A stretch of DNA of 64,000 nucleotides from IMG/VR virus record IMGVR_UViG_3300018411_000019, positions 1-64,000 of that record. One strand, 5' to 3'. Shown here piece after piece: positions 17,505 through 33,068 of this stretch. Under the pieces are notes generated by a model that made no database searches, was not told the DNA's origin, and saw nothing but the letters and a program-made list of their open reading frames with translations. Every line of letters starts with the position of its first letter. The stretch's first letter is position 1. This DNA comes from a virus. Position numbers and translations under genes: made by a program.

Positions 17505-18638
17505 TTAGTAAAGTTCAAAGTAGCCGCCATCACCTACTCGGATGTACACATCCTGGTAGTCACTGCCTTCCCCAGTTGTCAGGGTGAACCGCATGGTCCC
17601 ACTGCGCCAGAAGTTTCTCGAATACCCGCTTTCGTACCCTGTTGCGGTAAATCTGAAGGTGTTTCCGATGCGCCCGACCGAGATCATGGAACCGCCTGAA
17701 ATCCATGATCCGCCGATGGTACCAGCCGGGCCGTCATAGGTCAGGTTCACGGTGAGGGTATCACCGTATTGGCCTCGACCATCGATACTGGCAACCCGTA
17801 TACGAGTACGTCCCGTACCCCCAACCTGTCGACCTTTAACACGGGTGGAATCCAAACCGGTAGAACCGGCCTGAATAAAACCAGTACTGCCAATGGAGAT
17901 ACCAGCAGGTGCACCAATCGTCATCATCGAGTGGTCGTTGTTGACAACCATGGTTGCAGTTCGTCCATTTACACCTGCGTTGCCACCATGTCCATCACTG
18001 CCACTTCTGGCGATACCTCCCAATTCATAAGTGGCCGGGGAAGGTGGCGTATTACCCCAGGTATGGATACCACCTACACCTGGCTCAATGCCTGCACCGC
18101 CACCCCCTCGGAAGTTCCAACGTGTTTTCCCGCCGAAGTCTCCACTGGCACCGCCACCACCACCACCACCCGCGATAACCCCATTGTTCTGGATAGTGAC
18201 GGGTGTCTGGAGGTTAAGTCCAGGGCCGCCAGGGCCGGCCTGACTGATCGATGAACTCATTCCATAGCTATGGAAGGATGCACCGTGACCACCCCGTCCA
18301 ATGATCAGGCCATTGTTGATGATGACCACAGTTGAACCTGCCGGGAACACACCTGTCGCCAAGGCCCATTGATCGGTAGTATCTGAACCAATGTAGCCGT
18401 TGTTAACAAACACGTACTTCCCAGGCGAATTGGGTTGACCGAAACAGTTGTAGATGTTCAGGTTATAACCAACACCGGTGTGGGTGTAAACCATTTCCGA
18501 TGGCCAGACTTCCTTCCAGCCTGCAGTTGTTTTCACCAGCGCGCGTTTCAACGGCGCCCAGCTCGAGTCAGACACCTTCACATGCGGTTGCTTTGTCCTG
18601 GCCCAGGTCGATGGACCTATCTTCATGTCAATAGGCAT
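17505..18638 (-). CDS. Glycine-rich tail fibre or tip protein
   Basis: 377 residues starting after GAGGAAGCTGAT. The N-terminal 50 residues contain GWKEVWP, a short motif also present in varied form (WQQIWP, WRQVWP) in the fibre at 31494-33068. Then come repeated beta-hairpins rich in Gly and Asn (VFVNNGYIG, VVIINNGLIIGRGG, VTIQNNGVIAGGGG), typical of phage fibre proteins, and a C-terminal Ig-like beta domain (GDTLTVNLTYDGPAG, MRFTLTTG, VYIRVGDGGYFELY). It may bind the cell surface. A broken Hint-like sequence follows in frame after the stop, so the gene was probably once longer. Confidence 0.7.
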   Translation of the reverse strand: MPIDMKIGPSTWARTKQPHVKVSDSSWAPLKRALVKTTAGWKEVWPSEMVYTHTGVGYNLNIYNCFGQPNSPGKYVFVNNGYIGSDTTDQWALATGVFPAGSTVVIINNGLIIGRGGHGASFHSYGMSSSISQAGPGGPGLNLQTPVTIQNNGVIAGGGGGGGASGDFGGKTRWNFRGGGGAGIEPGVGGIHTWGNTPPSPATYELGGIARSGSDGHGGNAGVNGRTATMVVNNDHSMMTIGAPAGISIGSTGFIQAGSTGLDSTRVKGRQVGGTGRTRIRVASIDGRGQYGDTLTVNLTYDGPAGTIGGSWISGGSMISVGRIGNTFRFTATGYESGYSRNFWRSGTMRFTLTTGEGSDYQDVYIRVGDGGYFELY

Positions 18639-18648
18639 ATCAGCTTCC

Positions 18649-20082
18649 TCAGTAAGTCAGCCAGATATCACCTACCGCACCTTGAGAGCCGGTTGGATCG
18701 ACCGTGGAGATGAACACGTTGCGCTTACCCATGCTTCCGACAGCTGCGTAAGCATCCGACAGGATTGATGCACGGGTGGTGTTTTCCAGACGATTCGCAT
18801 TGACCGCTGTCTCAGCCGAACCCAATTTCCTGGACAGCAGGGTGTCGGTCTGACTTGTGGTGTATGCGCCCACTTGTGCTGCGGTGGTCTGGTGTGGGTT
18901 GTTCAGATTTCCGATGTGGCTGTTCAGGGCATTTCCGGCGTGCGACATGATGGCCTGATAAGTCCGTTGAGGCGTCATGAACTTATCGGAGATCGTAGTG
19001 GAAATACCCTGTTCGGCGGTGGCGGTGCTGTAATTGTCCACATTACCCAAGCCGACCTGTGCTTTGGTCGTAGAGTGTGGGTTACTGGTGTTGTTGATGT
19101 GCGCCTGCAGCAAATTCCCGGCGATGGCATTGATCGCTTCCTTGGTCCTCAAGGGCGTCATGAACTTGTCGTTCGCGGTGCCATTAGTGGCCTGTGCTTG
19201 GGTAGCCGTGAGGTAATTGTCCACATTACCCAGACCCACTTGCGCCTTAGTAACCGCATGGGGGTTGGTCTTCTTGGCCTCATGGTCTGCTACGTGTTCG
19301 GCTGCAATGCGTTGTGCCAGAGTGTTGGCCAGCGCTGGGGTCATGAAGCGGTTGTTTACCAGACCCGCCAGGGCTTCAGCTGCCGTGGCTGTGGCATAGT
19401 TGTCGACGCTTCCAAGCCCGACCTGTGCTTTGGTCGTGGCATGGGGGTTGGTTTTGTCATTAACGTGCGTGACCAGTCGATTGTCCAAACTGCCAATGAG
19501 CGAAATAAGCTGCTCTTCAACAATCCGGATTTGCTGACGGATCTCTTCATGCGAGGCTTCATCGCCCACCATGATCGCTTGAGTGATGCGCTCAAGTTGC
19601 CAGACGACATATTCCCAGCCAAAGGTATCACCGATGTCATGGATGTGAGGGGCTGCTGGATAGGCTGTTGGACGACCCAGAACAGAACCCCATTTGATAG
19701 GGCGGTCATCCAGATCCAACTGAGTGATCAGGTCCTGCAACGCATCGAGGTTCCAGGAATACTCACCACCGACTACACGGTAGTCAAGCTTGACACTGAT
19801 CGGCGCTGATACACGAAGCACGACCGCCGACTGAACATCCTTGCCGCTGCGCAACGACGCTTGAGAAAACGGTTGTGCCAGGATATAATCATCCACAGGG
19901 CGTAGCGGCATACCGGTTTCGTTGTCGAGGATGGTGAAACTGTCGGCATAAAACGGACCGGCCAACGGAATAAAGACCCGATTGGCATCGGTCAGGATAT
20001 CACGGACTTCCCCAACAATGTGGTTCGTTGGCGAGGTGCCAGTGAGATCCAAGGGATATTGAATAATTGGTGGAATTGACAT
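18649..20082 (-). CDS. Tail fibre protein, paralogue A
   Basis: 477 residues from the ATG at 20082 (GGAG upstream); the ATG at 20094 lacks support. Residues 1-150 are a virion-attachment region that starts SIPPIIQYPLDLTGTS. Then come four repeats of about 60 residues with NPHATTKAQVGLGSVDNY, each followed by an RFMTP or KFMTP segment, as in the phage tail-fibre repeat family. The last 50 residues form a separate tip (VFISTVDPTGSQGAVGDIWLTY). It is closely related, in places identical at DNA level, to the fibre at 31494-33068. It likely forms a trimeric fibre and follows the oxygenase gene in transcription order. Confidence 0.8.
   Translation of the reverse strand: MSIPPIIQYPLDLTGTSPTNHIVGEVRDILTDANRVFIPLAGPFYADSFTILDNETGMPLRPVDDYILAQPFSQASLRSGKDVQSAVVLRVSAPISVKLDYRVVGGEYSWNLDALQDLITQLDLDDRPIKWGSVLGRPTAYPAAPHIHDIGDTFGWEYVVWQLERITQAIMVGDEASHEEIRQQIRIVEEQLISLIGSLDNRLVTHVNDKTNPHATTKAQVGLGSVDNYATATAAEALAGLVNNRFMTPALANTLAQRIAAEHVADHEAKKTNPHAVTKAQVGLGNVDNYLTATQAQATNGTANDKFMTPLRTKEAINAIAGNLLQAHINNTSNPHSTTKAQVGLGNVDNYSTATAEQGISTTISDKFMTPQRTYQAIMSHAGNALNSHIGNLNNPHQTTAAQVGAYTTSQTDTLLSRKLGSAETAVNANRLENTTRASILSDAYAAVGSMGKRNVFISTVDPTGSQGAVGDIWLTY
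19391..19434. repeat. 44 bp direct repeat, copy 1
   Basis: Identical to 32011-32054, in the same orientation. It encodes part of a TKAQVGLGSVDNYAT fibre repeat. Identity over 44 bases without synonymous change points to recent exchange. Confidence 0.85.
19830..19881. repeat. 52 bp direct repeat, copy 1
   Basis: Identical to 32816-32867, in the same orientation, within the N-terminal attachment domain of the fibre (LAQPFSQASLRSGKDVQ). The copies lie 12,986 bp apart and frame the radical SAM island. Confidence 0.85.
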
Positions 20083-20167
20083 TGTGAACTCCAAGCAGGT
20101 AAGTGATCTTCCGCCCAGAGAGCAGAAGATCGAGGGAGACCACGCAAGGCGACGCCCTCATCGATGG

Positions 20168-20728
20168 CTAAAGGTCCTCGATGATGTAGTATTCGTGCAG
20201 TAACGACAGACGCAAGTCCTCGGTGACGTGGGCTACGCTGTGCTGCACATAACTCGGGAACAAATAGATGTCCCCTTGCTTGGGTTGTAGTGTAAAGTTT
20301 TTGAATAGTGCACTGTTCCGCATAGGTTTTGGGTAACCACGACATGCATTCCCTTTCGGGTCGAACATGGTCATGCCATTTACCGAGTCACCTGGGTAGC
20401 AAATTGCCGAGACAACCGAACCGGGATGGTAATGTGGATACAGACCTTCACCCTCAACAATCCACTTGCCATTGGTGTCGACGTAGAAGTTCCCAACCTT
20501 GTAATTGAAGTGATCTAGGCAGAATTGTTTCACTGCCGGAGTGATCACCTCATCGCGCATACTGAGGATGACTGGAAACAAATCTTTATCGATGCAGCGC
20601 TGGCGGCTGTCCTCCCCACCAGTCATGCTGTATAGTGCGAACACCTCATCGGTCCAGTCTGCCATGTTGAACCGATCCGCAACATTGATGCGTACAATCG
20701 GGGTCTTCCAGAGTTCAAAGACTTCCAC
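20168..20728 (-). CDS. Fe(II)/2-oxoglutarate-dependent oxygenase
   Basis: 186 residues from a GTG at 20728, one base after the upstream stop, with GAGGTG as ribosome site. It has the pattern of the 2OG-Fe(II) oxygenase family seen in phages and bacteria: YPHYHPGSVVSAICYPG (H99 and H101), a central TMFDPKGN strand, then GDIYLFPSYVQHSV with H163 as distal metal ligand and R173 in EDLRLSLL for 2-oxoglutarate. Such enzymes hydroxylate proteins, nucleobases or small molecules. It is the last gene of the radical SAM operon, and its target is probably shared with that pathway. Confidence 0.7.
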   Translation of the reverse strand: MEVFELWKTPIVRINVADRFNMADWTDEVFALYSMTGGEDSRQRCIDKDLFPVILSMRDEVITPAVKQFCLDHFNYKVGNFYVDTNGKWIVEGEGLYPHYHPGSVVSAICYPGDSVNGMTMFDPKGNACRGYPKPMRNSALFKNFTLQPKQGDIYLFPSYVQHSVAHVTEDLRLSLLHEYYIIEDL

Positions 20729-20729
20729 A

Positions 20730-21158
20730 TTACACCTCGCTAAGTGAAGCAATGCCTTCCTCAGTACATTCAAGTAGACAATACTTAACGGTCTGAGGGG
20801 CCCACCCTGACTCAATCCAATTTGGGATGGTCATTAGACGTTCCATGATTCGGTCGTATGTCTCAGGGTCTTGACTATACGGTACGAAATACATGTCCTG
20901 ACCCAGGAATAAATCAGGGTCATTCAGTATATCGTACTTATCGATACCGTAGATTTCATTGAGTTTATGCGCGTAGATAATGGCGACCGCGTAACTCTTA
21001 CTAGGGTAGATAAGGGGGAACGTAGCGTGCTTGAAATAAGACAGGGCATTGTCCACCAACTCATCGTCTTCAATGATCTCCATGTTACTGAAGTCATCTG
21101 GATGATCCGTAATTAACTGATTGTAGACACGCTGAAAATCTTTATAAGGTGGAGTCAT
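20730..21158 (-). CDS. Unknown protein of the radical SAM island
   Basis: 142 residues. The ATG at 21158 overlaps the stop of the preceding radical SAM gene (ATGA), which favours it over the ATG at 21197. The protein is acidic and alpha/beta, with no Cys cluster; a Tyr-rich middle (SYAVAIIYAHKLNEIYGID) and LLECTEEG end are visible. Coupled on both sides to enzyme genes, it could be a substrate-recognition or partner protein. No family is recognised. Confidence 0.6.
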   Translation of the reverse strand: MTPPYKDFQRVYNQLITDHPDDFSNMEIIEDDELVDNALSYFKHATFPLIYPSKSYAVAIIYAHKLNEIYGIDKYDILNDPDLFLGQDMYFVPYSQDPETYDRIMERLMTIPNWIESGWAPQTVKYCLLECTEEGIASLSEV

Positions 21159-22168
21159 AATGGCATAGTCCAATCGTTCTTCATCCCGACCAGGCATTCG
21201 TCGTAATTCAAATGGGTCATTATCAGATGGATGTCACCTCGTGCGCAACGATCGATATGGATACAATCGCCGCAGGTAACGTGCTCAACTCGACGAGTAA
21301 GTTCGTCGATATAGAGATTCCCTTCCAGTCCTTCGACCCCATGACGTGTCCATGGTCGTTCAATGCTATATTGATCTGAGAATAGAGGAAACTTCTCAAT
21401 TAGTGTTGGGGTGTAATATAGGTACCCGTTCCTATAGGTGAGTTCCAGGGAATCATCCAAAGGCTTTATCAGGTACCGCGACCGGTTTTCTCGGATGACC
21501 TCAGTGAAGCCTGTAAACGCTCTTAAGAATGCCTGTCTGTTGACAAGGTCATCGAAACCCTTACGAGCATGGGGGAAGACATATTCCACCAGTTTACGGA
21601 CGCCGAAATCCAACGCATGAATTTCCTTATCGAGTTGATCGCTAAGGTGTTCAGTCGGGTCGTCTGACATATTCACGGTGAGGTAGAGTAACTCGAACTT
21701 GACATCTGGTAGATGATCAACGATATACTGCACCCGGTCTTTGATTAGGTCGATGTGTTTTCTATTTCGGATACTTCTCACGGGGAAGGGAGTGGCAACT
21801 TTCAACCGCTTCCCTTTTAATAGGGAGTTTAGTTTCTCGCACAGTTCCTTAAGGCCTGTCTCTTGCAGCAGGGCGAGCGGCAGTACCATACCACAGTATC
21901 GATCTGCCAAGGACTGTATCAATGGATGGTCCAGGATAGCGGTACCAGCACTCGACGCGATAACATCAACCGGACCAACTGTGAACTCATTGAGCTCATA
22001 TCCACTGTCCTTCATCTCATCGACTAAGGAGAGCAGTGCCGGTCCATCTTCATCGAACGGACCGGGATCAAGTTCCTTATCGACCATACAGCCAACACAA
22101 CTGTACTTACACCCTTGAAGGATCTCCAAGGTTATGTTGAACCCCCGATTGGGAATCATCTCTGACAT
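21155..22168 (-). CDS. Radical SAM protein, paralogue 1 of the CxxxCxxCxxDK group
   Basis: 337 residues. C20, C24 and C27 in GCKYSCVGCMVDKE form the radical SAM 4Fe-4S motif, used to cleave S-adenosylmethionine into a 5'-deoxyadenosyl radical. The C-terminus has CGDCIHIDRC (CxxC-x5-C) and a later Cys in DECLVG, enough for one auxiliary cluster. The position where SPASM proteins have their first cysteine reads NGYLYYTP without Cys. It overlaps the next paralogue upstream by 62 bases and the next gene downstream by ATGA. The substrate is unknown; peptide or protein modification is the best guess. Confidence 0.8.
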   Translation of the reverse strand: MSEMIPNRGFNITLEILQGCKYSCVGCMVDKELDPGPFDEDGPALLSLVDEMKDSGYELNEFTVGPVDVIASSAGTAILDHPLIQSLADRYCGMVLPLALLQETGLKELCEKLNSLLKGKRLKVATPFPVRSIRNRKHIDLIKDRVQYIVDHLPDVKFELLYLTVNMSDDPTEHLSDQLDKEIHALDFGVRKLVEYVFPHARKGFDDLVNRQAFLRAFTGFTEVIRENRSRYLIKPLDDSLELTYRNGYLYYTPTLIEKFPLFSDQYSIERPWTRHGVEGLEGNLYIDELTRRVEHVTCGDCIHIDRCARGDIHLIMTHLNYDECLVGMKNDWTMPL

Positions 22169-23186
22169 ACTGAAGCCCTACCATACAGTCTTTGATTGCT
22201 AACCGTTTCATGATATTAATGATCCCTTTCTCGGTACAACTGCTCATGTAAACACATGTCATGCAGTCAGTACCTTCCAGATACTCGATCGCCTCATTCA
22301 TCGCTTTCTGACGAACACTTAGAACATTCTCCATGTTCCAGGGCTTAGGGATGACAAATTCTTCTTCAAGGAACGGACAATCATCTTTTAAGAAAGGTAC
22401 CCAGTAGAGCTTACCGCCTGTGTACCAGAGGTTTACCATAGTGCCAGTGTGGTAACAGAGATCAGGGTTCCTGCGGCGCTCATCCACACCACAGAGAGCA
22501 GAGTAGAACTGACTGATACGGTGGGACATCCGTCTGATGTTCTGGCCAACCATAATATCCTTGTAAGGTAGCCGACCATATGGGATATTGAGGATATCGT
22601 CTTTCTCAGTGGGGAACTCCACTGCAAAGCCGTTCTTCATCAATTCGTCAAAGTTCTCGCTTACAGTGTCTGAGGTACAGTTGACCACAAACCCTGCTTC
22701 ATTTAAGTAGGCTTTCTTAAACGTATCTTTGACGTATTGGAGCTTACTGGCAATCATGGTCCCGAACTTATCTGTTTTGAAGAAGTCGGGGGCAGCAGGC
22801 ATCAGAAATCGAATCGCCTTGTTGGGACAGGCCTCGTCGATCTCTTCGCACATTTTAGCGTACTTGTCCAGGTCTTTCTCGAGGAAGGCGGCGTTGAACG
22901 TAACCTGGTCAAACATCTGCGCCATGGTTCTAAATGTTGGGTTGTCCATGAGGACACTGGTGTTATCCGAAGACATGTAGTCAGTCGGTCCTACACCAAG
23001 GTCAAATGCAACGTACCCACCATCAGCCACCATCTCTTGAATTAGAGCGTACAGTTGGGGAATGTCTTCTGCACTACCGCCGAGTTCCTTATCGATCATG
23101 CAGCCACTACACGAGTGACCACATCCCTTTAGAATATCGAGGGCAATCTCCAGGCGCTGGCGATGCTGTACTATAGGTTTTTTCAT
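22107..23186 (-). CDS. Radical SAM protein, paralogue 2
   Basis: 359 residues from the ATG at 23186, which overlaps the previous stop (ATGA) and has AGGAAT upstream; an ATG at 23255 inside the previous gene is less likely. C22, C26 and C29 in CGHSCSGCMIDKE are the radical SAM cysteines. The C-terminal motif is CMTCVYMSSC with CMVG after it. The phrase GVGPTDYMSSDN resembles TVGPVDVIASS and KVGPTDLTTAEN in the two sister genes, so the three are paralogues. The reaction is unknown. Confidence 0.8.
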   Translation of the reverse strand: MKKPIVQHRQRLEIALDILKGCGHSCSGCMIDKELGGSAEDIPQLYALIQEMVADGGYVAFDLGVGPTDYMSSDNTSVLMDNPTFRTMAQMFDQVTFNAAFLEKDLDKYAKMCEEIDEACPNKAIRFLMPAAPDFFKTDKFGTMIASKLQYVKDTFKKAYLNEAGFVVNCTSDTVSENFDELMKNGFAVEFPTEKDDILNIPYGRLPYKDIMVGQNIRRMSHRISQFYSALCGVDERRRNPDLCYHTGTMVNLWYTGGKLYWVPFLKDDCPFLEEEFVIPKPWNMENVLSVRQKAMNEAIEYLEGTDCMTCVYMSSCTEKGIINIMKRLAIKDCMVGLQYVRDDSQSGVQHNLGDPSRV

Positions 23187-24250
23187 GTGATATTCCTTTC
23201 CGGATTCTCGAGGTGACAGGCAGGTTCCCACCTGTTCTTGATGTCGAACAGGCACCTATCACTGCTGGCCTCTTCCATCAGCGTCGGGATGTTATTTCGA
23301 GAGCAGTTGTCAAGGTAACAACAATCGCCACATTCAGGATGCCCTGAATACTTTATCAGTGTATCAGCGTACTGGTTTTCCCTGAAGTCAATCAGTGACT
23401 CGAATGTCCATGGTTTTGGGAGTTTGTACTTATCGTCAAAGATAGTCAGCGTTTCAACCATGGTTATCGTTGTATAGAGGTCACCTGTACGGTAAGTGAA
23501 CTCGAACCCCTCCTGTGGACGAGGTACCAGTCGAGTGAAGACATGACTGCCCGCCACACGTTTTTCACGATCAAGTACGAACGATGAAAACTGGCGCGTC
23601 ACCCGCTTGAACTGTTCGGCAACCATGAGGTTATCAAAGCCACGCCTCACATCGGTGAAAACGAATTCTACCGAATCAAACTCTGTCAGGTTACTGTCGC
23701 TGATTGCATCGAAGGTCTCGTCACTGAATTGGCGGATGGAATCCGAATCGACGTTGATGGTCATGTAAATGCGAGTGAATGTAATGGTCTTTAACATACC
23801 CTTGAAGCGGGCAAATCGTTCCCTCAACTGCGTCATGTATTTCTTATTCAGCATGTTCTTGAGGGTGACAGGGGTACCTACCATCAGGTATTTGCCAGGG
23901 ATCAATTCTTCAAGCTTGTCGGCTAACCTTTTAAGGCCATGGTCATTCAACATTGCCAGATTAATTGAGATCAAGTTGAAGTAGCTGACTATCTTCCCGA
24001 AGACAGGATCATCAAGGATGGTAAAGCCGTTCTCAGCAGTGGTCAGGTCAGTTGGCCCTACTTTCAATTCGAGTGTGCGCCAGCCTTTCGATCTAATGTC
24101 CTCCAGAAGGGGCAGAAGATCGCCTAGTTCCGGTTCGAGCTGGGTATTCGCCCCATTCTTATCGACTGTACATCCTAGACAGTTATAGCCGCACCCGGCA
24201 GTGATCTCCAGATTGAAGTTCACAGTGAATGTAGCAGGATCAGTCATCAT
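23183..24250 (-). CDS. Radical SAM protein, paralogue 3
   Basis: 355 residues. C20, C24 and C27 in CGYNCLGCTVDK bind the radical SAM cluster. The C-terminal CGDCCYLDNC is the auxiliary-cluster motif, followed by DRCLFD. It shares KVGPTDLTTAEN with its two sisters. It overlaps the radical SAM gene upstream (ATGA type at 24247-24250) and the sister downstream. Three tandem copies suggest either three related substrates or a hetero-oligomer. Confidence 0.8.
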   Translation of the reverse strand: MMTDPATFTVNFNLEITAGCGYNCLGCTVDKNGANTQLEPELGDLLPLLEDIRSKGWRTLELKVGPTDLTTAENGFTILDDPVFGKIVSYFNLISINLAMLNDHGLKRLADKLEELIPGKYLMVGTPVTLKNMLNKKYMTQLRERFARFKGMLKTITFTRIYMTINVDSDSIRQFSDETFDAISDSNLTEFDSVEFVFTDVRRGFDNLMVAEQFKRVTRQFSSFVLDREKRVAGSHVFTRLVPRPQEGFEFTYRTGDLYTTITMVETLTIFDDKYKLPKPWTFESLIDFRENQYADTLIKYSGHPECGDCCYLDNCSRNNIPTLMEEASSDRCLFDIKNRWEPACHLENPERNIT

Positions 24251-25176
24251 TTCAGTTTCTCCCAGCGCTCTATGAGTCCACGGAACCCATTGCAGGATTC
24301 ATCCAGTGCCACCACCTCTCTCAAGTGTTCAGAGAGACACTTACCGTAATAGGGACAGGCATTGCAGATCGCATTCATAGAGACCCGCGCTTTCTCCTGT
24401 TCACACCATTCCAAATAACCGGATATCCCGTCGACTACTTTGAAGTATTCGCGATCCTGGCTGTCGAATTCTAGGACAGCAAGATCACCCGTAGGGGTTA
24501 TGTAAACGTGATCGTCACTAAATGCATTGCGCTCCCCGCTGATCACATCCTCTAACTGCCATTCGTTCTCGAAGGTGAAATTACGATTGGGGTGATTGAT
24601 CACCTGCCAGACGAACTCTTCAAATTCCTTAAAGGACACGGGTTGAACATTAGCCTGGTTGGAGCTGTATGGCTTTATCTCCGCATGCCATAGATGAGGA
24701 AGGGAAGCTAGAGTGTTGACATACTCGTCAGGAGTCACCTTGTCTAGAAATTCCCGACTTGCTAGAGTAAGCATCACGAACTTGTTACTCAGAAGCATGA
24801 TGTTCTCAAATACCTTCTCATGCTTCTCCCTGGCCGAGAAGTCATAGGACACCGAGATCTTGAAGTCACTGTCGTGAACAAGATCGGGGACATGAGAAAG
24901 GTTAGTGACTAATACAATGTCATTTATCCCCCTCGACAGGAATATCTCTTTTATGGCCAGTAGATATTCCTCTGGTAAGAGTAGAACCTCACCGCCATAA
25001 AGGTCAACGTGACCTATCTCGAAGTGGTCAAGTAACTCATCCACCCGCTCAACGATGACCTCGATTGGTAACAGGGTCCGGTCATTAAGCTGTTCTGTCG
25101 TTAAGTAACAAAAGTCACAGCTAAAGTTGCAATAGTACGTGGGGTTCAGACTGAGGTTTATTCTTGGCTTGGACAA
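24247..25176 (-). CDS. Radical SAM protein
   Basis: 309 residues, starting at TTG (25176) behind a strong GGAGGG. C16, C20 and C23 in YYCNFSCDFCYL are the radical SAM cysteines, and LYGGEVLLLP is the usual GGE motif contacting the amino group of S-adenosylmethionine. The C-terminus has CNACPYYGKC and a further Cys in ESCNGF. A strand ITPTGDLAVLEF sits where SPASM has its first Cys, here absent. It is different enough from the three paralogues downstream to be a separate subfamily, closer to SPASM/twitch peptide maturases. Confidence 0.8.
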   Translation of the reverse strand: MSKPRINLSLNPTYYCNFSCDFCYLTTEQLNDRTLLPIEVIVERVDELLDHFEIGHVDLYGGEVLLLPEEYLLAIKEIFLSRGINDIVLVTNLSHVPDLVHDSDFKISVSYDFSAREKHEKVFENIMLLSNKFVMLTLASREFLDKVTPDEYVNTLASLPHLWHAEIKPYSSNQANVQPVSFKEFEEFVWQVINHPNRNFTFENEWQLEDVISGERNAFSDDHVYITPTGDLAVLEFDSQDREYFKVVDGISGYLEWCEQEKARVSMNAICNACPYYGKCLSEHLREVVALDESCNGFRGLIERWEKLK

Positions 25177-25235
25177 AACAAACCCTCCGAAATGATGATG
25201 GCAATTGCCAGTGCCAGATTGTCAGCCCGCATCAC

Positions 25236-26324
25236 TTAGCCTCTCGCAATGAGTTGGACAGACTCGTCCACGTACGGGGTGGGGGTCAGGTAGTCCTGCA
25301 TCCCGTTCATCTCGATGATCCGTGGGGCGATGCTCTTCATGGTCTTACAGTGATGTTCGACCAGGCCAAGGCGCTTGGTATCGGTTATTGTTTTACGACA
25401 ACCATTGCAGATGAGGAACATGGGGCATGTATTGCAATCTTCTTTCATCGACCAGAGTTCTTCCTGGTTGCGCAGGGGAGTTACGAAGCCTCCGGCCATC
25501 TCATGTTGAAAGTCGATTGGGTATTTCAGGTCATCGCCGAAAGCCCCACACGAGAAGTATCCGTTACCAGGCTGTAACGTACGGATGCCCTCATCGCAAT
25601 CACGGGACAGTGGACAGATCGTTTGTTGCCCCTTTATGCGCTTGACCATCTGCTTGGTATTGAATTCCCATTCCATCAGTCCTGCATCGTAGATCTCGAT
25701 GTATGCCTTATACATGTCGGCTTGAGTATACATCTGATCTTCATTGCCCATGGTGATCCCTTTTTTATCAACCACGGGACCCGAAGCAACGGCATAGTTG
25801 ACTTTGGCTTCAACTCCAAGGTATCGAGCTAGTCGCACGGTGTCGAGGACGGTATGGGCATTGTCCCTATCGATCACCGCAATGAATTCAGGCCGGTAAC
25901 CGACGCGCTCGAGGAAGAGGTCACTCACCGCAATGAATTCAGACTCAGTCAGTGGGGTACCATCCCCCTTCAAACGCTTGTCACCATATTGAAACGACGT
26001 GGTGATACCCATTCGTCTATGGTTAAAAAGCTTTTCCCATTTCTCGGGGTTCACAAAGAAAGGCCAGAGATTGGAGGTAAAGCTAATTGACGCATCAGAG
26101 TCCAACCGATCCAGTATTTCGATCATATCCCAGTAATACTGAGGAGGCATCATCAGGGGATCGCCACCATTGATGATGATTGTGCGGGTTTCAGGGTACC
26201 TCTTAATAAACTGCTCAATTTGATCAAGGGATACGGTGGCTGTAGCGTCCTCACTCAGATGCGTACTGGAGCAGAACGTGCAGCGGAAATTGCAAAGCTG
26301 TGTGGGCTTGACTATGAGGTCGAT
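25236..26324 (-). CDS. Radical SAM/SPASM protein without a usual start codon
   Basis: About 362 residues. The sense sequence begins with KIDLIVKPTQLCNFRCTFC, with radical SAM cysteines at residues 12, 16 and 19, then IIINGGDP. A full SPASM region follows: CPLSRDC, GNGYFSCGAF, CNTCPMFLICNGC and HHC. An amber TAG (26328-26330) lies directly before this sequence, and no ATG, GTG or TTG occurs before the cysteine motif. The best candidate is ATC at 26324, 8 bases after GGGGG (26333-26337). The ATG at 26153 would lose the catalytic motif. It is the first gene of the downstream radical SAM operon. Confidence 0.7.
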   Translation of the reverse strand: MDLIVKPTQLCNFRCTFCSSTHLSEDATATVSLDQIEQFIKRYPETRTIIINGGDPLMMPPQYYWDMIEILDRLDSDASISFTSNLWPFFVNPEKWEKLFNHRRMGITTSFQYGDKRLKGDGTPLTESEFIAVSDLFLERVGYRPEFIAVIDRDNAHTVLDTVRLARYLGVEAKVNYAVASGPVVDKKGITMGNEDQMYTQADMYKAYIEIYDAGLMEWEFNTKQMVKRIKGQQTICPLSRDCDEGIRTLQPGNGYFSCGAFGDDLKYPIDFQHEMAGGFVTPLRNQEELWSMKEDCNTCPMFLICNGCRKTITDTKRLGLVEHHCKTMKSIAPRIIEMNGMQDYLTPTPYVDESVQLIARG

Positions 26325-26337
26325 TTTCTAATCCCCC

Positions 26338-26359
26338 TGCCAGGACAATGTGCCTGGCA
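26338..26359 (-). promoter_or_regulatory. Hairpin in the leader of the SPASM gene
   Basis: TGCCAGG and CCTGGCA pair perfectly around an 8-base loop, ending one base before the GGGGG ribosome site. It includes the ATG at 26358-26360 of a 10-codon frame that ends at the amber codon. It may keep the ribosome site open or control its use. Confidence 0.45.
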
Positions 26360-26423
26360 TTAAATGGCTGGTTTGAAATAAGTCATAGTAGAATGGCTGT
26401 AAAGTTTTAACTTAATCCCGTCT

Positions 26424-26452
26424 ATTATAGACAATAAAAAGGTTATCACGCC
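26424..26452 (-). promoter_or_regulatory. Possible sigma70-like promoter
   Basis: A perfect TATAAT (26424-26429 on the minus strand) lies about 100 bases before the SPASM gene, after the upstream terminator. The -35 region (GGCGTG at 17-base spacing) is poor, so either an activator is needed or the match is chance in AT-rich DNA. Confidence 0.35.
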
Positions 26453-26475
26453 AGCCTGACTTTACAGCAGACATA

Positions 26476-26499
26476 GGGCAGGGGCCGTGGCCCCTGCCC
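26476..26499. terminator. Hairpin terminator
   Basis: An 11-pair perfect stem GGGCAGGGGCC / GGCCCCTGCCC with a 2-base loop, directly after the stop of the minus-strand gene at 26510. It is flanked by CATA (26472-26475) and TATG (26501-26504 on the plus strand). It splits the island into two transcripts. Confidence 0.8.
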
Positions 26500-26509
26500 T
26501 TATGCCGCG

Positions 26510-27508
26510 TTACAAGATGGCTTTAAACATTTCCTTTATCGAGCAGACCTTCGACTTCTCACCCAGTACTGTATCGTGCAGGAAGCAACGCAGGCCGCAT
26601 CTAGAGTAGAACTCGCAACTGAAGCATTCGTAATGTTCAACGAACGCAACCTCTGCGGCGTCCTTGGCGCGCAGACCTTCTGCCTCATCCAGGATGGCAT
26701 CCTTACCAGCCTCCGACCAGCAGGTGCTGACTACACCATCTTTATTGATGATCTTAGTCGAGCGGCAGGTGGTCTCATTGAACTTGTTTTCCTTCCAGTC
26801 CCGAATGGGATAGGAGTTCGGGTACCGTTCATTGATGTTGAGGTACAGTTGACCAATCAAGTCTTCATCCGGTTGGATGTACTCGTACATCTGACTTGGA
26901 ATGTAGTGGTCAAAGTAGACACTGAAGTTATCACACATGTCCTTGAACTCCGGACCTTCCTTACCGTCAAGGAAGAGATGGATGTTCTGTTTGGTGAGCA
27001 CTACGTTAACAGTATCTACCAGATCATGCAGCTGGTTGAGGTTTCTGAAGAACACCTCTCTCTGAGTGCCGGTGAAGCGCCCTGCCGGGTCGTAAGAGGT
27101 AGCCAGGTAGACTTCCCTACATTTCTCCCTGAGGCGCTCCACAAGACATCTCACGCGATCCGCGTCGCCGTAGACCAGGTTAGTCCCAAAGACTAATTTG
27201 ACTTCAGTGAAATGCTCGATGATCCTTGACCCGATCTCGTAGTAAGTATCAAAGTACTCATCTGCGATATCGTCCATGAACAATTCCCCACCGGTGATGT
27301 TCACTACGACAGGAACGTTTGGGTCCGACACCCCAATCAGGGTCTGTACCTTATCGAACATAGCGTGGTGATCGACACCCACTTTGGAACTATGGTCCTG
27401 GTGACAAAACGAACAGCTCATGTTACAGAATTCAAAGAGTATTAGGTGCACCTCTTTGAATCGGCCCTTCTTCTCCTGGAGTATATCTACCAGTGGGATC
27501 TTTATCAT
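26510..27508 (-). CDS. Radical SAM/SPASM protein
   Basis: 332 residues with ATGA overlap to the gene upstream. C28, C32 and C35 in EFCNMSCSFCHQD bind the radical SAM cluster, and NITGGELFMD is the GGE motif. The SPASM part is complete: CRSTKIINKDGVVSTCW gives the first cysteines, CFSCEFYSRCGLRC the central ones, and KVCSI the last. SPASM enzymes usually modify ribosomal peptides or proteins by thioether or C-C crosslinks or by oxidation. The gene ends the upstream half of the island. The substrate is possibly the CHSX-tailed protein at 29309-29848, but this is inference. Confidence 0.85.
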   Translation of the reverse strand: MIKIPLVDILQEKKGRFKEVHLILFEFCNMSCSFCHQDHSSKVGVDHHAMFDKVQTLIGVSDPNVPVVVNITGGELFMDDIADEYFDTYYEIGSRIIEHFTEVKLVFGTNLVYGDADRVRCLVERLREKCREVYLATSYDPAGRFTGTQREVFFRNLNQLHDLVDTVNVVLTKQNIHLFLDGKEGPEFKDMCDNFSVYFDHYIPSQMYEYIQPDEDLIGQLYLNINERYPNSYPIRDWKENKFNETTCRSTKIINKDGVVSTCWSEAGKDAILDEAEGLRAKDAAEVAFVEHYECFSCEFYSRCGLRCFLHDTVLGEKSKVCSIKEMFKAIL

Positions 27509-28569
27509 CGCCAGGCAGCCCCTTCAAGTATATCCTTAAGCTTATCGTCGTCGAGGCTAAGGATTAGCCTGATAAGGCTCTCGTCGTACTTACCGTTATC
27601 ACGCATAGCGAGAGCAATGCGCATCGGACCGTTGAACATAACCTGGATACGATCCATGCAGTTTGCAGGGTCGGACATGGGACGGGTATCGGCGAGTAAC
27701 TCGAGAATCTTGGCAGCACGCTTGGCCGAGGACTCATCCTCAAGATGAGTCATTAACTTAATGGCTTCACGGAGCATACCCATGAGCCATTCATCGGTAG
27801 GACGGTAGGCGTAAAGACCCGGGCGCATGAGTACCGTAGACGATAGATGAGGGAGCCTCAGGCACCCTTCAAATACAGTCTGGCCGTTGAGCAAGGTGTC
27901 TATATCAGCACCTGCCATATCCCAGTTCTCTGGCCGCGTGATATGACGAGCCCACACTTCCAGAGCATCGTGTGCGTTCGACAGTGCGATCTTGCGCAGG
28001 ATGTTCTTGGTTACCCGAGGGATCTTACCGTATTTTCCATCAAGTCGAAGTCGGATGATCTGCCACTCAAGCGAAAGCTCTTCGGCATTGTCACGGACCA
28101 GCTCATCGATGATGTCCTGAAGTTCTTCTTCACTGTCGTAGACAGCCTTTACTACAGCCCCATTAATCACCAGCTTAGAAAGGACATCGACGCTGGGTTC
28201 ACCGCGTGACGATACCGAACTGTTGAACATCGCTTTCTTACAGACCATGATCCACTTGAAGGTGTCGAAGTCGATATTGGGGAAAAGAGCCTTGATGAAC
28301 ATACCGTACAGGCGCACGTACGTATCGGAATCACAGAAGATGGTGGTCTTCTCATCGCTGGATACCGCTTGGACCATCGCGTCTTTGAAAGCCTTATGAT
28401 CGACAGCATCCAGAGACTCAGCGTAGAACAGCTGGACACCGCCCTCTGGATCAAATTCACTCACCTTGGCGTATTCATACCCGATTTGTTTACCGATGGT
28501 CATTCGCTTTGCGTCATGGTCGAGCAGTAGCGATGTGTCCACATAGACACGGTTGATAAAATGATACAT
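27505..28569 (-). CDS. Unknown 354-residue protein of the island
   Basis: AAGGAG precedes the ATG. An N-terminal beta-rich part (INRVYVDTSLLLDHDAKRM) is followed by mostly helices. No Cys cluster, nucleotide-binding loop or membrane span is visible. It sits between another unknown gene and a SPASM gene, sharing ATGA with the latter, so it probably works in the same pathway. It may be a regulator or a substrate carrier; no family was recognised. Confidence 0.65.
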   Translation of the reverse strand: MYHFINRVYVDTSLLLDHDAKRMTIGKQIGYEYAKVSEFDPEGGVQLFYAESLDAVDHKAFKDAMVQAVSSDEKTTIFCDSDTYVRLYGMFIKALFPNIDFDTFKWIMVCKKAMFNSSVSSRGEPSVDVLSKLVINGAVVKAVYDSEEELQDIIDELVRDNAEELSLEWQIIRLRLDGKYGKIPRVTKNILRKIALSNAHDALEVWARHITRPENWDMAGADIDTLLNGQTVFEGCLRLPHLSSTVLMRPGLYAYRPTDEWLMGMLREAIKLMTHLEDESSAKRAAKILELLADTRPMSDPANCMDRIQVMFNGPMRIALAMRDNGKYDESLIRLILSLDDDKLKDILEGAAWR

Positions 28570-28570
28570 A

Positions 28571-29293
28571 CTACACTCCTTCGGGCAGAGTAGCTAGGTT
28601 GGAAACTGTAGACGATAGGGCATCAAGGAACCTACCGGATTCGAGCTGATCTTCCATTGCCAGCAGACAGATAAAGTAAGGGTTATTCTTATCCATGAAG
28701 AACTCAAACATCTTCTTACCAGCAAAACACGGCTCGTTAAAGAAAGTCCGGTTCCAGCACCAGTCGCTTTCCGGGATCTCATCAATGAGCAGTGGGAAAT
28801 CAGGATGCTTGACCAGATTGACGAAGTTGATCCCTCGCAGATCGTCCGCCACCTCCTCGTACTTACCTACCTGATCCTTAAGCTTAGGGTGGCAGTGTAG
28901 GGCGAAGGCCGGTAGCATGGAGACGTTAGTCAACCAGCGGGAAAGAACCTCTGCGTTCTCGATGACGAATTGAGTTGGGTCGAATGTCAGGGCATTGGGG
29001 ACGGCCATGATATCGAGTAGCAGATGAATGATGATGCTTTCAAACTGCGGCGTATTCACCATACTTGGAAGAGACAGATATTCTTTAAACACCTGTAGCT
29101 CTGATTCGAGATCGGGAAACTTGATCTCACAGTTCAGGTTAAGGTTGGTCAGGTACGTGAGCAGAACCTTCCCCTTGAACTTACTTTCACTGTAGTCGAT
29201 TACGTAATGAACATCTTCGGTGAACTTCAACCGCAAGAGATCCATTGGAATGGGTGCCGGAGTAACGATGACTTTCTTTTCTTGATGTTCCAT
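28571..29293 (-). CDS. Unknown 240-residue protein of the island
   Basis: CAGGAGCAGCACC precedes the ATG. The protein is helical, with hydrophobic helices near the middle (SIIIHLLLDIMAVPNAL) that are too short and polar at the ends to be clear membrane spans. Two isolated cysteines lie in SDWCWNRTFFNEPCF. It is 15 bases downstream of the CHSX-tailed gene and 1 base before the next gene. Function is unknown; association with that substrate is plausible from position. Confidence 0.65.
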   Translation of the reverse strand: MEHQEKKVIVTPAPIPMDLLRLKFTEDVHYVIDYSESKFKGKVLLTYLTNLNLNCEIKFPDLESELQVFKEYLSLPSMVNTPQFESIIIHLLLDIMAVPNALTFDPTQFVIENAEVLSRWLTNVSMLPAFALHCHPKLKDQVGKYEEVADDLRGINFVNLVKHPDFPLLIDEIPESDWCWNRTFFNEPCFAGKKMFEFFMDKNNPYFICLLAMEDQLESGRFLDALSSTVSNLATLPEGV

Positions 29294-29308
29294 GGTGCTG
29301 CTCCTGGT

Positions 29309-29848
29309 TTAACGTCGACCGCGGGCTGTATGGCAGTTACTGTGACAGCTTGAATGACAGACCGTGTTGGTCAGGTCCAGGGTGGTGTTGCGGCAATTGG
29401 ATACGTAGGCACTGTACAGTTCATCGATACTATCGTTCAGCATCCCGAGATCCATTGTCACGCCATTGCGAACTGCAGATACTGGCACACCGTTGGCGAA
29501 CGCCCCCACCGAGTACGCCGTGTGTGCCACCGCCGTCCCATCATAGATCACTTCACTGCCGAGTTGATGATGGGTGCGGTAAATGACGATGCGCGTCCGA
29601 CGGATAGCCGCAAAGATGTTGGCGAATGACCGCAGGCGCTCCACGACTTGGCTGGCATCGGTATCGCCGGCGTTGAAACTATCGCGAGACAAGGACTCAC
29701 CACGGCCTGCTGTCGTGCCACCAAACCACCACGACAACGAGTTGGCCGGATAACTGTTGGTGCCCCACGAAATACCACTGTTGCAGCGGTCACGAATCCG
29801 GCTGTTGGCTTGGACCGCTAGACGGTTACGAGTTATTTGTTCAGTCAT
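29309..29848 (-). CDS. Protein with C-terminal CHSx repeats, candidate modification substrate
   Basis: 179 residues with AAGGTG before the ATG, 1 base after the stop of the SPASM gene. Residues 1-150 form a soluble domain with arginine-rich helices and beta strands (RIVIYRTHHQLGS). The C-terminus is striking: C152, then TVCHSSCHSNCHTARGRR, that is three CHSx units (C164, C168, C172) and a basic end. Short regular Cys repeats at a C-terminus, next to a SPASM enzyme, are the layout of ribosomally made, post-translationally modified peptides such as CXXX-repeat precursors. The size suggests a phage structural protein carrying a modified tail. Zinc binding is an alternative. Confidence 0.65.
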   Translation of the reverse strand: MTEQITRNRLAVQANSRIRDRCNSGISWGTNSYPANSLSWWFGGTTAGRGESLSRDSFNAGDTDASQVVERLRSFANIFAAIRRTRIVIYRTHHQLGSEVIYDGTAVAHTAYSVGAFANGVPVSAVRNGVTMDLGMLNDSIDELYSAYVSNCRNTTLDLTNTVCHSSCHSNCHTARGRR

Positions 29849-29849
29849 G

Positions 29850-30890
29850 TTACACCTTCAAAATCAGGTTACTGTGAGTGTTTCGGCCAGACAGGAAGCG
29901 CAGGGTGTTTTTCAACCCACCGCATCGCCCATCTTGCCATGGAAGTCTGTGGCAATCACCGCCACATAGATCAAACACATCGCATCCGAGGCAACCATCA
30001 CCCCAAGTCAATTCGGTAGCGATCTCGGTTACCCGACCGTCCGAGACCAGAAAAGCTTCCACACCGTCTTCTATCTTGGCGTGATGGAGCTTAGCGGCTG
30101 CGTTTGGACAACCTGAGAGCGATCCGTCTGAGTTGATGGTTACAAGGTTCTGTTCACAATTACGGCAATTGGTGTCGACCTTGACGATATTGTTCTTGAG
30201 TTTTTCCTCGATGATGTCGAGGGTCTTGATCCGGACCCTTGGCTTTCGCTGTTTATAGCGTTGGTACAGGGCCAGGTACCAATTGTCCTGCTCTTCATTG
30301 TCGGGGAATACATCCCGATTGGCGGTTGCGTTCCCATCGAAGGTCAGGCGCTCGAGTGACACTTCTTCAACTGCAAAGCTTTCCATCTGATCGATGAACC
30401 AGTCGGGAGTCATCTGCAGCAAAGCACGGCTGACCGAGGCTTTAAGCGCAATGCCTATACCCCTACTCCGGAGCAACTCAAGGTTACTTTTCCAGAGGTT
30501 GAACTGTTTATCGTTCGCCCATCGAATCCATGGGTCCCAGCTTGTGCCGATAAACCCGTCGAAGTAATCGAGCATAAAAAGAATATGCTCCTCCCTCAAC
30601 TTGAATGTCAGGTTACTGTTTGCACAGAACGAGACATGTGGGTTGTCGATGAACTGATCGGCAAAAGCCTTAAGCTTTTCGAGTGGCACCAGAAACGGTT
30701 CTCCACCATGAAACTCCATGTGGTAGTGTGTTCCTACTGGATACTTGGCCATAAATGACCGGACCCAGTCAGCTGTGACCATCGGATCAAACTGCGTCTT
30801 GTCGCCGTTCTTCCCGTTGGTGAAGCAATGATGACAGTCAAGATTGCAGGTACCCGTGGTCTTGATGTAGATGGTCTTGTTCATGCCCAT
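29850..30890 (-). CDS. Radical SAM/SPASM maturase next to the CHSx protein
   Basis: 346 residues. C15, C19 and C22 in TCNLDCHHCF are the radical SAM cysteines, and EFHGGEPFL is the GGE motif. The SPASM region is canonical: CRNCEQNLVTINSDGS, LSGCPNAA, CLGCDVFDLCGGDC and GRCGGLKN. This is the arrangement of anaerobic sulphatase-maturating enzymes and many peptide maturases. It overlaps the JmjC-like gene upstream by 10 bases and lies 1 base before the CHSx-tailed gene, forming a three-gene cassette. Modification of that protein is the simplest hypothesis. Confidence 0.85.
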   Translation of the reverse strand: MGMNKTIYIKTTGTCNLDCHHCFTNGKNGDKTQFDPMVTADWVRSFMAKYPVGTHYHMEFHGGEPFLVPLEKLKAFADQFIDNPHVSFCANSNLTFKLREEHILFMLDYFDGFIGTSWDPWIRWANDKQFNLWKSNLELLRSRGIGIALKASVSRALLQMTPDWFIDQMESFAVEEVSLERLTFDGNATANRDVFPDNEEQDNWYLALYQRYKQRKPRVRIKTLDIIEEKLKNNIVKVDTNCRNCEQNLVTINSDGSLSGCPNAAAKLHHAKIEDGVEAFLVSDGRVTEIATELTWGDGCLGCDVFDLCGGDCHRLPWQDGRCGGLKNTLRFLSGRNTHSNLILKV

Positions 30891-31396
30891 AATTTTTGCT
30901 CAGTGAACAATTCCAACCCAAAACTCAACATGATAGAATCCTCGGTGTTGATTGCTCGGTGCGGATAGTTGCGTGGGATGTAGATCGACTGACCTTCACT
31001 GAGTTCTAGAACACCGTCGGGTGATTCAAAGAGCTTACGCCCTTTGACCATGTGAACAACGACATCGTCAGGGTCAGTGTGCATGGCAAAACTTACCGAG
31101 GCCTTGGGCGACAAGAACAAATGGCAACTGACAAACCCCTGGTGCTTCATGTGGGACGCCAGCGCCTTGCATTCGCGAAACATGACCGAATTGAATCGCT
31201 CATATCCCTCGATCTTAATCGGGTAGGTCGAAAGCTCAAGGTATTCGTTCAAGTTATTGACTACATAAGACGCATTGTTGCGAACCACCTTGATCATGTT
31301 CTGCTCGTATACATGGGCACTGGCAATGACATCCTCCACCGCTAAGGTATCTTCACAGATTCCTGAAAATTTGAACATCTCCAATCGCTGGAGCAT
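30881..31396 (-). CDS. JmjC/cupin-4-like protein hydroxylase
   Basis: 171 residues. MHTDPDDVVVHMVKGRKLF has the HxD metal ligands (H106, D108) and the GRK sequence typical of ribosomal oxygenase-like JmjC proteins. GQSIYIPRNYPHRAIN gives the distal histidine H146. These are Fe(II)/2-oxoglutarate enzymes that hydroxylate His, Arg or Asn side chains in proteins. It is much shorter than ROXA/MINA proteins and lacks their C-terminal dimer and winged-helix parts. It opens the operon that continues with the SPASM gene and the CHSx protein, whose repeated His residues would be suitable targets. Confidence 0.7.
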   Translation of the reverse strand: MLQRLEMFKFSGICEDTLAVEDVIASAHVYEQNMIKVVRNNASYVVNNLNEYLELSTYPIKIEGYERFNSVMFRECKALASHMKHQGFVSCHLFLSPKASVSFAMHTDPDDVVVHMVKGRKLFESPDGVLELSEGQSIYIPRNYPHRAINTEDSIMLSFGLELFTEQKLWA

Positions 31397-31493: not shown

Positions 31494-33068
31494 TTAATCC
31501 GCCCACTGCGAAGGCCAGATCTGCTGCCAATTACCGTTGACCGTGGCGTACAGGCGTCCGCCTGCTGACAACAGCTGCACCCCAGTACCTTCTCCAAGGT
31601 AGGGGTCGTTGTAACCCTGTGCAACGTGGTTACTCCACACCGCCGGCCAGACCTGACGCCAGTAACCACCGACATACGACTGCAGTGTACCGTTGACGAT
31701 CCGCATACTGGTGTTCTGCTGAGTGTTCAGACGAACATACCGGTTGTCGTGGTCACCCGAAATAAGGTGATCGCGCATTGCACCAGCGAGTAGCAGGGTG
31801 GTGTTACTGTCAAGGCTTCGCTCGCGAGTGACGGCATTGGGGATGTTACTCAGACCGACCTGAGCCTTCGTTACTTGGTGTGGGTTACTGGTGTTGGTGA
31901 CGTGGGCATTGATCAGGTTGCCGGCATGGACGTCAATCGATTGTTTGACTCGCTGGGGTGTCATGAAGCGGTTGGTGGCCACACCCGCCAGGGCTTCAGC
32001 CTGACTGGCGGTGGCATAGTTGTCGACGCTTCCAAGCCCGACCTGTGCTTTGGTGACACTGTGCGGATTCTGCTTGTTGTTGACGTGGGCATCCAGTAGA
32101 ACACCCGCATGGATCATGATGGCTTGATAAGTCCGTTGAGGCGTCATGAACTTGTCGGTAACCGATGCAGATTCGGCCTGTGCCTGAGTGGCTGTCCCGT
32201 AGTTATCCACGTTTCCTAGGCCGACTTGCGCTTTGGTTACCTGGTGCGGGTTGGTCTTCTTGGCTTCATGGTCACTGACCCGCTCGGTGGCGATGCGGTC
32301 TGCCAGCGATGCACTTCCCAGAGGTGTCATGAAGCGGTTGTTGGCGACCCCGGCCAGCGACTCACTGGCGTTAGCTGTCGGATAGTTGTCGACACTACCC
32401 AGTCCCGTCTGGGCCTTGGTGACGGCATGAGGGTTGGTTTTGTCGTTGGTGTGACCTACAAACCGCGCATCCAGAGCATCGATGATCGCTTGTTGCTGGG
32501 CATGTAGCGTCTGCATCTGTTGGCGCAGCTCTTCGTGAGAGGCCTCGTCACCTGTGAGGATCGCATACGTCACACGCTCCAACTGCCACACGACGTATTC
32601 CCACCCGTAGGTGTCGCCAATGTCGTGCATGTGCGGTGCTGGCGGATACATGGTCGGTCGACCAATAACTGCACCCCATTTGATAGGGCGGTCATCCAGA
32701 TCGAGTTCGGCAATGAGGTCGGCCAAGCCCGCCAGGTTCCAGGAATACTCGCCCCCGACAACCTGATAATCCATCTCAACGCTGATGGGGACAGAAGTCT
32801 TCAGGACAACGGCGCACTGAACATCCTTGCCGCTGCGCAACGACGCTTGAGAAAACGGTTGTGCCAGAACATAGTCATCCACAGGCCTCAGGGGCTGACC
32901 GGTTTCGGCGTTACGAATGACGAAGCTGTCGGTGTAGAATGGTCCGGCTTTGGGCACGAAGACCCGCTCGTTGAGGTTGGCAATGTCCCGACTTTCACCT
33001 ACAATGGCGTTTGTCGCTGACGTTCCGGTAAGGTCGAGCGGATATTGAATAATGGGTGGCACGCTCAT
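31494..33068 (-). CDS. Tail fibre protein, paralogue B
   Basis: 524 residues with CTGGAG before the ATG. It starts SVPPIIQYPLDLTGTSATN and shares the attachment domain and four TKAQVGLGSVDNY-type repeats with the fibre at 18649-20082. The C-terminal 120 residues differ: a region with RYVRLNTQQNTSM and two related segments (YVGGYWRQVWP and ATVNGNWQQIWP) probably forms the receptor-binding tip. Common body with different tip is typical of fibre sets that widen host range. It is transcribed in the same direction as the island but separated by a terminator. Confidence 0.8.
   Translation of the reverse strand: MSVPPIIQYPLDLTGTSATNAIVGESRDIANLNERVFVPKAGPFYTDSFVIRNAETGQPLRPVDDYVLAQPFSQASLRSGKDVQCAVVLKTSVPISVEMDYQVVGGEYSWNLAGLADLIAELDLDDRPIKWGAVIGRPTMYPPAPHMHDIGDTYGWEYVVWQLERVTYAILTGDEASHEELRQQMQTLHAQQQAIIDALDARFVGHTNDKTNPHAVTKAQTGLGSVDNYPTANASESLAGVANNRFMTPLGSASLADRIATERVSDHEAKKTNPHQVTKAQVGLGNVDNYGTATQAQAESASVTDKFMTPQRTYQAIMIHAGVLLDAHVNNKQNPHSVTKAQVGLGSVDNYATASQAEALAGVATNRFMTPQRVKQSIDVHAGNLINAHVTNTSNPHQVTKAQVGLSNIPNAVTRERSLDSNTTLLLAGAMRDHLISGDHDNRYVRLNTQQNTSMRIVNGTLQSYVGGYWRQVWPAVWSNHVAQGYNDPYLGEGTGVQLLSAGGRLYATVNGNWQQIWPSQWAD
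32011..32054. repeat. 44 bp direct repeat, copy 2
   Basis: Identical to 19391-19434, 12,620 bp away. Confidence 0.85.
32816..32867. repeat. 52 bp direct repeat, copy 2
   Basis: Identical to 19830-19881. The two copies have the same orientation. Confidence 0.85.

Follow-up and report, generated by a model that had tools for sequence, protein, structure and literature searches.

A predicted radical SAM maturation cassette for the Cys-His tail of a probable phage tail protein

Why would a phage carry a whole battery of radical S-adenosylmethionine (radical SAM) genes side by side? This question is raised by the IMG/VR virus record IMGVR_UViG_3300018411_000019, from which we analyzed positions 1 to 64,000 (hereafter the window) of a total of 107,313 bases, and whose PHROG matches show a pattern typical for large phages. 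Here, between positions 20168 and 31396, 13 genes form a cassette on the minus strand that is bracketed by repeat-rich fiber genes of phrog_2163. The gene order is cupin/JmjC_2 oxygenase, radical SAM protein 1 (rSAM1), a 179-residue protein, a phrog_20767 protein, a 354-residue protein, rSAM2, rSAM3, rSAM4, rSAM5, rSAM6, rSAM7, a phrog_20737 protein, and a PF13759 oxygenase. A preliminary description of this DNA had proposed a dedicated pathway that modifies proteins or peptides, maybe the flanking tail fibers. Strong support for such a pathway comes from the enzymes, which co-occur almost perfectly with a single Cys/His-tailed protein and have their best, though far sub-threshold, matches mostly among peptide maturases. 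The fibers are probably the wrong target in detail, as the candidate is the 179-residue protein inside the cassette, though it does lie in a tail-fiber and baseplate neighborhood. We consider it likely that the cassette serves the post-translational maturation of this one tail-associated virion protein at its (CHxS)3-RGRR tail, as a virus-specific system resembling those for ribosomally synthesized and post-translationally modified peptides (RiPPs). Because enzymes and tail co-occur in clearly more than one hundred sequences from viruses, modification of the tail of the 29309-29848 product is very probably what the enzymes are for.

The Cys-His tail and its link to the enzymes

The probable substrate (29309-29848, minus strand; phrog_35144) consists of a body (residues 1-163) and a disordered C-terminal tail, and it ends in VCHSSCHSNCHTARGRR. 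The tail-encoding segment, CHSSCHSNCHTARGRR plus the stop codon (29309-29359), is the sole place in the 107-kb record where CHxxCH is found, and the tail itself takes the form of three C-H-x-S repeats, then R-G-R-R. In the AlphaFold model, the body is confident, with a mean predicted local distance difference test (pLDDT) score of 91.5, while the tail is poorly ordered at about 50-70. When compared with relatives in Pseudomonas phage pPa_SNUABM_DT01 and Burkholderia phages FLC6 and SURPRISE13, the tail is nearly unchanged, while the body has diverged (24% identity with the Burkholderia phage proteins). Moreover, gp170 of Agrobacterium phage Atu_ph07 ends in CHSSCHASCHNSRSRR and protein 289 of Sinorhizobium phage Phosso in CHTSCHASCHSSRSRR, both being encoded beside an rSAM1 homolog. 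Among viral structure models, the 29309-29848 product matches the Atu_ph07 protein A0A2L0UZF9, whose 296 residues equal the length of gp170. No confident PDB structure match was obtained for the body fold, nor for the phrog_20767 protein, and a reading of function from the fold was therefore dropped.

Among 76 tails retrieved via rSAM1, the mean pairwise identity is 80% for the tails versus 35% for the bodies. Here, the Cys, His, and Arg residues are fixed, while the synonymous codons for Cys and for His are used at about equal frequency, and the x-S serine positions and RGRR are likewise conserved; in 43 of these 76 proteins, the body frame has no Cys. The tail is under purifying selection at the protein level. 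Given that the residues are fixed despite synonymous change, and that co-occurrence is reciprocal (see below), we regard the tail as functionally tied to the enzymes. In one of our alignments (A2), the invariance of the tail is partly built in, as most of its loci were picked by the tail pattern. Natural variants do occur in three loci, L168 (CHSNCHINRSRR), L218 (CHTSCHSNCNCNRGRR), and L247 (CHTRCHSRCHNSRGRR), which show a tail of two repeats, the loss of the third His, or an Arg at a Ser position, and these are natural mutants useful for mapping the modification.

A search of IMG/VR DNA with the pattern CHxSCHxxCHxxRxRR-stop gave at least 120 matching stretches, all of those listed being C-terminal in an open frame and mostly in small proteins, which suggests that such a tail-tip device is general in environmental viruses. 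Among the matches listed, radical SAM relatives are encoded within the fetched flank in 113 of 120 tail-pattern loci. In bacterial and archaeal genomes (one each for 84,980 species), we found 13 tail-pattern stretches, all in contigs with titles of draft or metagenome-assembled genomes. The system is confined to viral (and draft or metagenome-bin) sequence. Since the IMG/VR loci had been chosen by their tail, two independent retrievals were made, the one by rSAM1 and the other by the tail-less body. With rSAM1 as the only query, 80 loci were retrieved, and downstream there was a strict tail in 72, a recognizable variant in five, and none in one, with the other two loci being truncated, giving 77 of 78 evaluable loci. 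With the body, 55 loci were retrieved, all of which have the tail (53 strict and two variants) and rSAM1. For 14 loci with enough flank, a count that takes in near-identical or closely related records, the gene order is conserved and the cupin, rSAM1, tail protein, phrog_20767 protein, rSAM2, rSAM3, and rSAM4 are each found in 14/14, followed by the 354-residue protein (12/14), the phrog_20737 protein and the 2-oxoglutarate (2OG) oxygenase (11/14 each), and rSAM5-7-like genes (10/14). There is also a second layout, in which two adjacent tail-bearing proteins of about 125-140 residues are followed by rSAM5-7-like paralogs (L057:6049-6857 and L071:12928-13694, both on the minus strand, and many others).

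Using the enzymes as queries, we found the system in six phages among 50,697 cultured-phage records, all of them jumbo phages (DT01, FLC6, FLC8, SURPRISE13, Atu_ph07, and Phosso); a search of the same records with the tail alone gave no match, probably owing to the low-complexity filtering of BLAST. Another contig carrying the system, L048 (222,888 bp), is closely similar to the Burkholderia phages among these. The tail gene and the enzymes together present one mark of a RiPP locus, namely a ribosomal precursor with a conserved core adjoining its maturases.

Enzymes of the cassette

As the preliminary description had claimed, all seven of the proposed radical SAM proteins have a CxxxCxxC motif near the N-terminus and a CxxCx5C motif near the C-terminus, though its count of seven radical SAM genes becomes four secure and three probable. 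By the CxxxCxxC motif and a PF04055 match, rSAM1 (29850-30890, directly upstream of the substrate gene), rSAM2 (26510-27508), rSAM3 (25236-26324), and rSAM4 (24247-25176) belong to the radical SAM superfamily, with rSAM3 and rSAM4 above and rSAM1 and rSAM2 below the curated cut-off. In addition, each of the 25 sequences aligned for rSAM1 matches PF04055 at E ≤ 0.01. Of three full SPASM layouts claimed earlier, two stand, as CX9-15GX4C...CX2CX5CX3C...C (seven Cys) is exact in rSAM1, which has every SPASM Cys, and in rSAM2, while it is near-exact in rSAM3 and absent from rSAM4-7, with rSAM4 having a short C-terminal Cys cluster. The divergent paralogs rSAM5 (23183-24250; CGYNCLGC, phrog_31457), rSAM6 (22107-23189; CGHSCSGC), and rSAM7 (21155-22168; CKYSCVGC) gave no match in a Pfam scan. 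Their CxxxCxxC motif is invariant, and profile comparison with rSAM4 gave a weak match covering the region of the Fe-S motif (E 8.5e-5, probability 60%), while against the rSAM1 profile there is no match except at the C-terminus. These three proteins are thus counted as probable radical SAM enzymes, mainly by their motif. For rSAM6, the start lies nearer 23189 than 23255. As regards rSAM3, the first ATG (at 26153) would lose the CxxxCxxC motif, and there is no ATG, GTG, or TTG ahead of that motif. Here, the GTG or TTG start of its relatives aligns with an ATC at 26324, which is preceded by AGGGGGA (26324-26345, minus strand) and is identical in a second assembly (L005), so rSAM3 probably starts at an AUC codon.

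The best NCBIfam matches of the enzymes are mostly to peptide maturases, all far under the cut-off, and for rSAM1 these include cyclophane- and thioether-forming maturases; in the PDB, its sequence relatives include 8vpo, 5wgg/5why, and anSME. In their Cys layout and their best NCBIfam and PDB matches, rSAM1 and rSAM2 resemble the SPASM maturases of RiPPs (PapB, the YhhB/FxsB cyclophane enzymes, CteB/SCIFF, and DynA), but they score about 40 bits against cut-offs of 340-450, and their proposed substrate is a folded virion protein instead of a short leader-core peptide. The nearest concept is the His-Xaa-Ser system (HxsABCD), which likewise has a C-terminal repeat with His-x-Ser units and several radical SAM genes beside the target. 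In contrast, the phage unit is Cys-His-x-Ser followed by RGRR, is served by four to seven radical SAM proteins, and is virus-specific. Weak matches of rSAM1/rSAM3 to HxsB (about 22 bits; cut-off 370) and HxsC (24-30 bits; cut-off 267.9) fall short of both models, and an NCBIfam scan of the substrate, the phrog_20767 protein, and the 354-residue protein gave no match, to HxsD or otherwise.

The earlier placing of two oxygenase-like genes at the cassette ends holds, with both products above their cut-offs. The one at 20168-20815, for which comparison with relatives puts the true start probably 3' of the TTG, matches PF13759 (2OG-FeII_Oxy_5) at 46.6 bits (cut-off 27), and the other at 30881-31396 matches JmjC_2 (PF08007) at 35.5 bits (cut-off 22), with the HxD...H metal triad being kept in 74 of 74 relatives. 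By PF08007 and this triad, the latter is a JmjC_2/Fe(II)-2OG cupin oxygenase. Characterized JmjC_2 enzymes hydroxylate Arg or His in proteins. The cupin resembles YcfD, MINA53, and NO66 in passing PF08007 and keeping HxD...H, and Arg and His are abundant in the phage tail; unlike those hydroxylases, it is short and single-domain. In the Burkholderia phage cassettes (L010:18771-19984 and L009:18858-20035), two tandem dihydrofolate-reductase-like genes lie between rSAM2 and rSAM3, possibly for a reductive tailoring step.

Virion setting and competing explanations

Published virion proteomics of Atu_ph07 placed most of the detected proteins in three clusters, one of which is CDS 170-215 (PMC6102473). 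We checked the numbering (gp198 is the portal, gp204 the prohead core, and gp215 the major head protein) and CDS 170 is the tail-bearing protein, so this cluster defined by mass spectrometry begins at the tail protein itself. A location in the virion is thereby strongly, if indirectly, indicated. In other lineages, the genes upstream of the cassette are of baseplate-wedge and tail-fiber families. Just downstream of the cassette in the window, there is a second fiber and Gp38-like-adhesin pair (17505-20094), by analogy with which the tail protein may be an adhesin-like partner of the upstream fiber (31494-33068). In lying beside tail-fiber genes and having an exposed, His-rich terminal segment, it is similar to fiber-tip adhesins and metal-tipped spikes (T4 gp38, gp37, and P2 gpV), though its body has no confident PDB match and its Cys-His tail comes with dedicated enzymes. 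From one lineage to another, the adjacent fibers come from unrelated families, yet the tail remains the same, and for this reason the flanking fibers were set aside as the first-choice (and sole) target.

We propose that the folded body would be a built-in recognition domain, in the role that a leader peptide has in RiPPs, and would appear to be retained instead of removed, with the flexible tail (three C-H-x-S repeats and R-G-R-R) as the modified core. A core of rSAM1-4, aided by zero to three of the divergent paralogs (rSAM5-7), the cupin, and the 2OG oxygenase, would act on Cys, His, Ser, and/or Arg. Most likely, thioether or Cys/His carbon cross-links would come from the SPASM enzymes, with side-chain hydroxylation falling to the oxygenases. 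The product would be a compact, rigid, and cationic tip displayed on the tail of the virion, where it would serve to bind a receptor or to enter through the envelope. Tail modification as such, the bonds involved, and the task of the tip are all things we infer from these patterns. In a broader form, and with no bond type specified, we lean towards the view that tailed viruses, among them giant phages as well as numerous viruses from metagenomes, use a multi-enzyme radical pathway of their own to give a tail protein a peptide tip that is chemically cross-linked and hydroxylated. Such a pathway would add a new class to virion maturation and, among RiPP-like modifications, another new class that is confined to viruses.

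Several points weigh against this proposal. Co-occurrence shows functional coupling and not catalysis, and tail modification is a prediction from sequence. In the cassette, we recognized neither a RiPP recognition element nor a protease or transporter, and three of the enzymes are probable members, assigned mainly by motif. The presence of gp170 itself in Atu_ph07 particles is something we infer from the cluster boundary. Moreover, the number of enzymes does not track the number of repeats. A scheme of one enzyme per repeat was rejected, as Atu_ph07 has four core enzymes for three repeats, and L168 has six (four with PF04055 and two divergent) for a tail of two.

Other explanations use much of the same evidence. 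Metal sites at fiber tips are known in phages, and three CH pairs on the exposed C-terminus of a probable tail protein, whose body mostly has no other Cys, could bind metal at the tip, like phage spikes and the T4 gp37 needles, with the radical SAM enzymes building or loading a metallocofactor and the residues staying unmodified. We find this rather unlikely, as simple metal sites require no enzymes, the best radical SAM matches are mostly to peptide maturases and not to cofactor-assembly enzymes at the family level, and the x-S serines and RGRR are conserved too. Nor is the tail likely to be a mere recognition tag that the enzymes bind while modifying the body or an adjacent fiber. Although a docking tag would equally give an invariant tail on diverging bodies, and fiber genes do flank the cassette, repeats of reactive Cys and His whose spacer residues vary resemble a core more than a tag, and the neighboring fibers change family across lineages under a constant tail.

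The SPASM enzymes typically make RiPPs, and the C-terminal core is small and cationic, which would suit a free RiPP-like peptide (a toxin, signal, or metallophore) that is released by cleavage of the precursor and deployed against competitors or the host. This is highly improbable, however, given a conserved cassette with no recognized protease or transporter, a body that is conserved and folded, and a mass-spectrometry cluster in Atu_ph07 that points, with the gene neighborhood, to the virion. Finally, a role in nucleotide, queuosine, or cofactor metabolism or in DNA repair is scarcely credible. The matches to MoaA (31 bits; cut-off 284), QueE, and NrdG models are weak and at the superfamily level, every one being far under the curated cut-off; the cassette holds no other genes of those pathways, and the radical SAM genes are constantly linked to the tail protein. 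The profile search for nucleotide or cofactor pathways, on which the preliminary description had staked its idea, found no QueE, NrdG, or MoaA equivalog above cut-off among the proteins scanned.

We know of no virus in which a set of radical SAM enzymes matures a protein of the particle, and of no precedent for such a virion-maturation pathway. We found no description of the system in open-access text, though non-open literature may hold one. In the accessible text of jumbo-phage gene lists (DT01, FLC6, S13, and RP12/RP31), radical SAM, cupin, and 2OG genes are listed singly, with no link to a target protein, and the pPa_SNUABM_DT01 paper assigns radical SAM genes to DNA repair and host metabolism (PMC8541153). 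If true, a tail-maturing pathway would extend the peptide chemistry of radical SAM enzymes by a branch in viruses, would explain phage radical SAM gene clusters so far read as metabolic or repair genes, and would give a function to several conserved protein families lacking annotation. The culturable phages DT01, FLC6, S13, Atu_ph07, and Phosso make the system directly accessible.

Remaining genes and minor features

All genes of the preliminary description are open on the minus strand, and the coordinated translation it had read from overlaps agrees with the tight spacing or overlap seen at most junctions. The four genes it called unknown are present among the enzymes, but one of these is the probable substrate, which had been overlooked. 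The other three encode conserved accessory proteins. For the phrog_20767 protein (28571-29293), no match was found in Pfam, NCBIfam, or PDB structures at E ≤ 0.001, and its AlphaFold model is confident (pLDDT 92.9). The 354-residue protein (27505-28569) gave no known family in Pfam, NCBIfam, and PHROG scans, and the third is the phrog_20737 protein (20730-21197). On the same strand, a repeat-rich tail fiber or virion structural protein of phrog_2163 (31494-33068) lies directly upstream of the cassette, and a paralog (18649-20094) lies directly downstream, next to the Gp38-like tail-fiber adhesin (17505-18638; PF05268 above cut-off). Finally, the cassette has a single long gap, which follows rSAM2 and holds a G+C-rich inverted repeat, AGGGCAGGGGCC-AC-GGCCCCTGCCCT (26475-26500), which may be a terminator or processing site.

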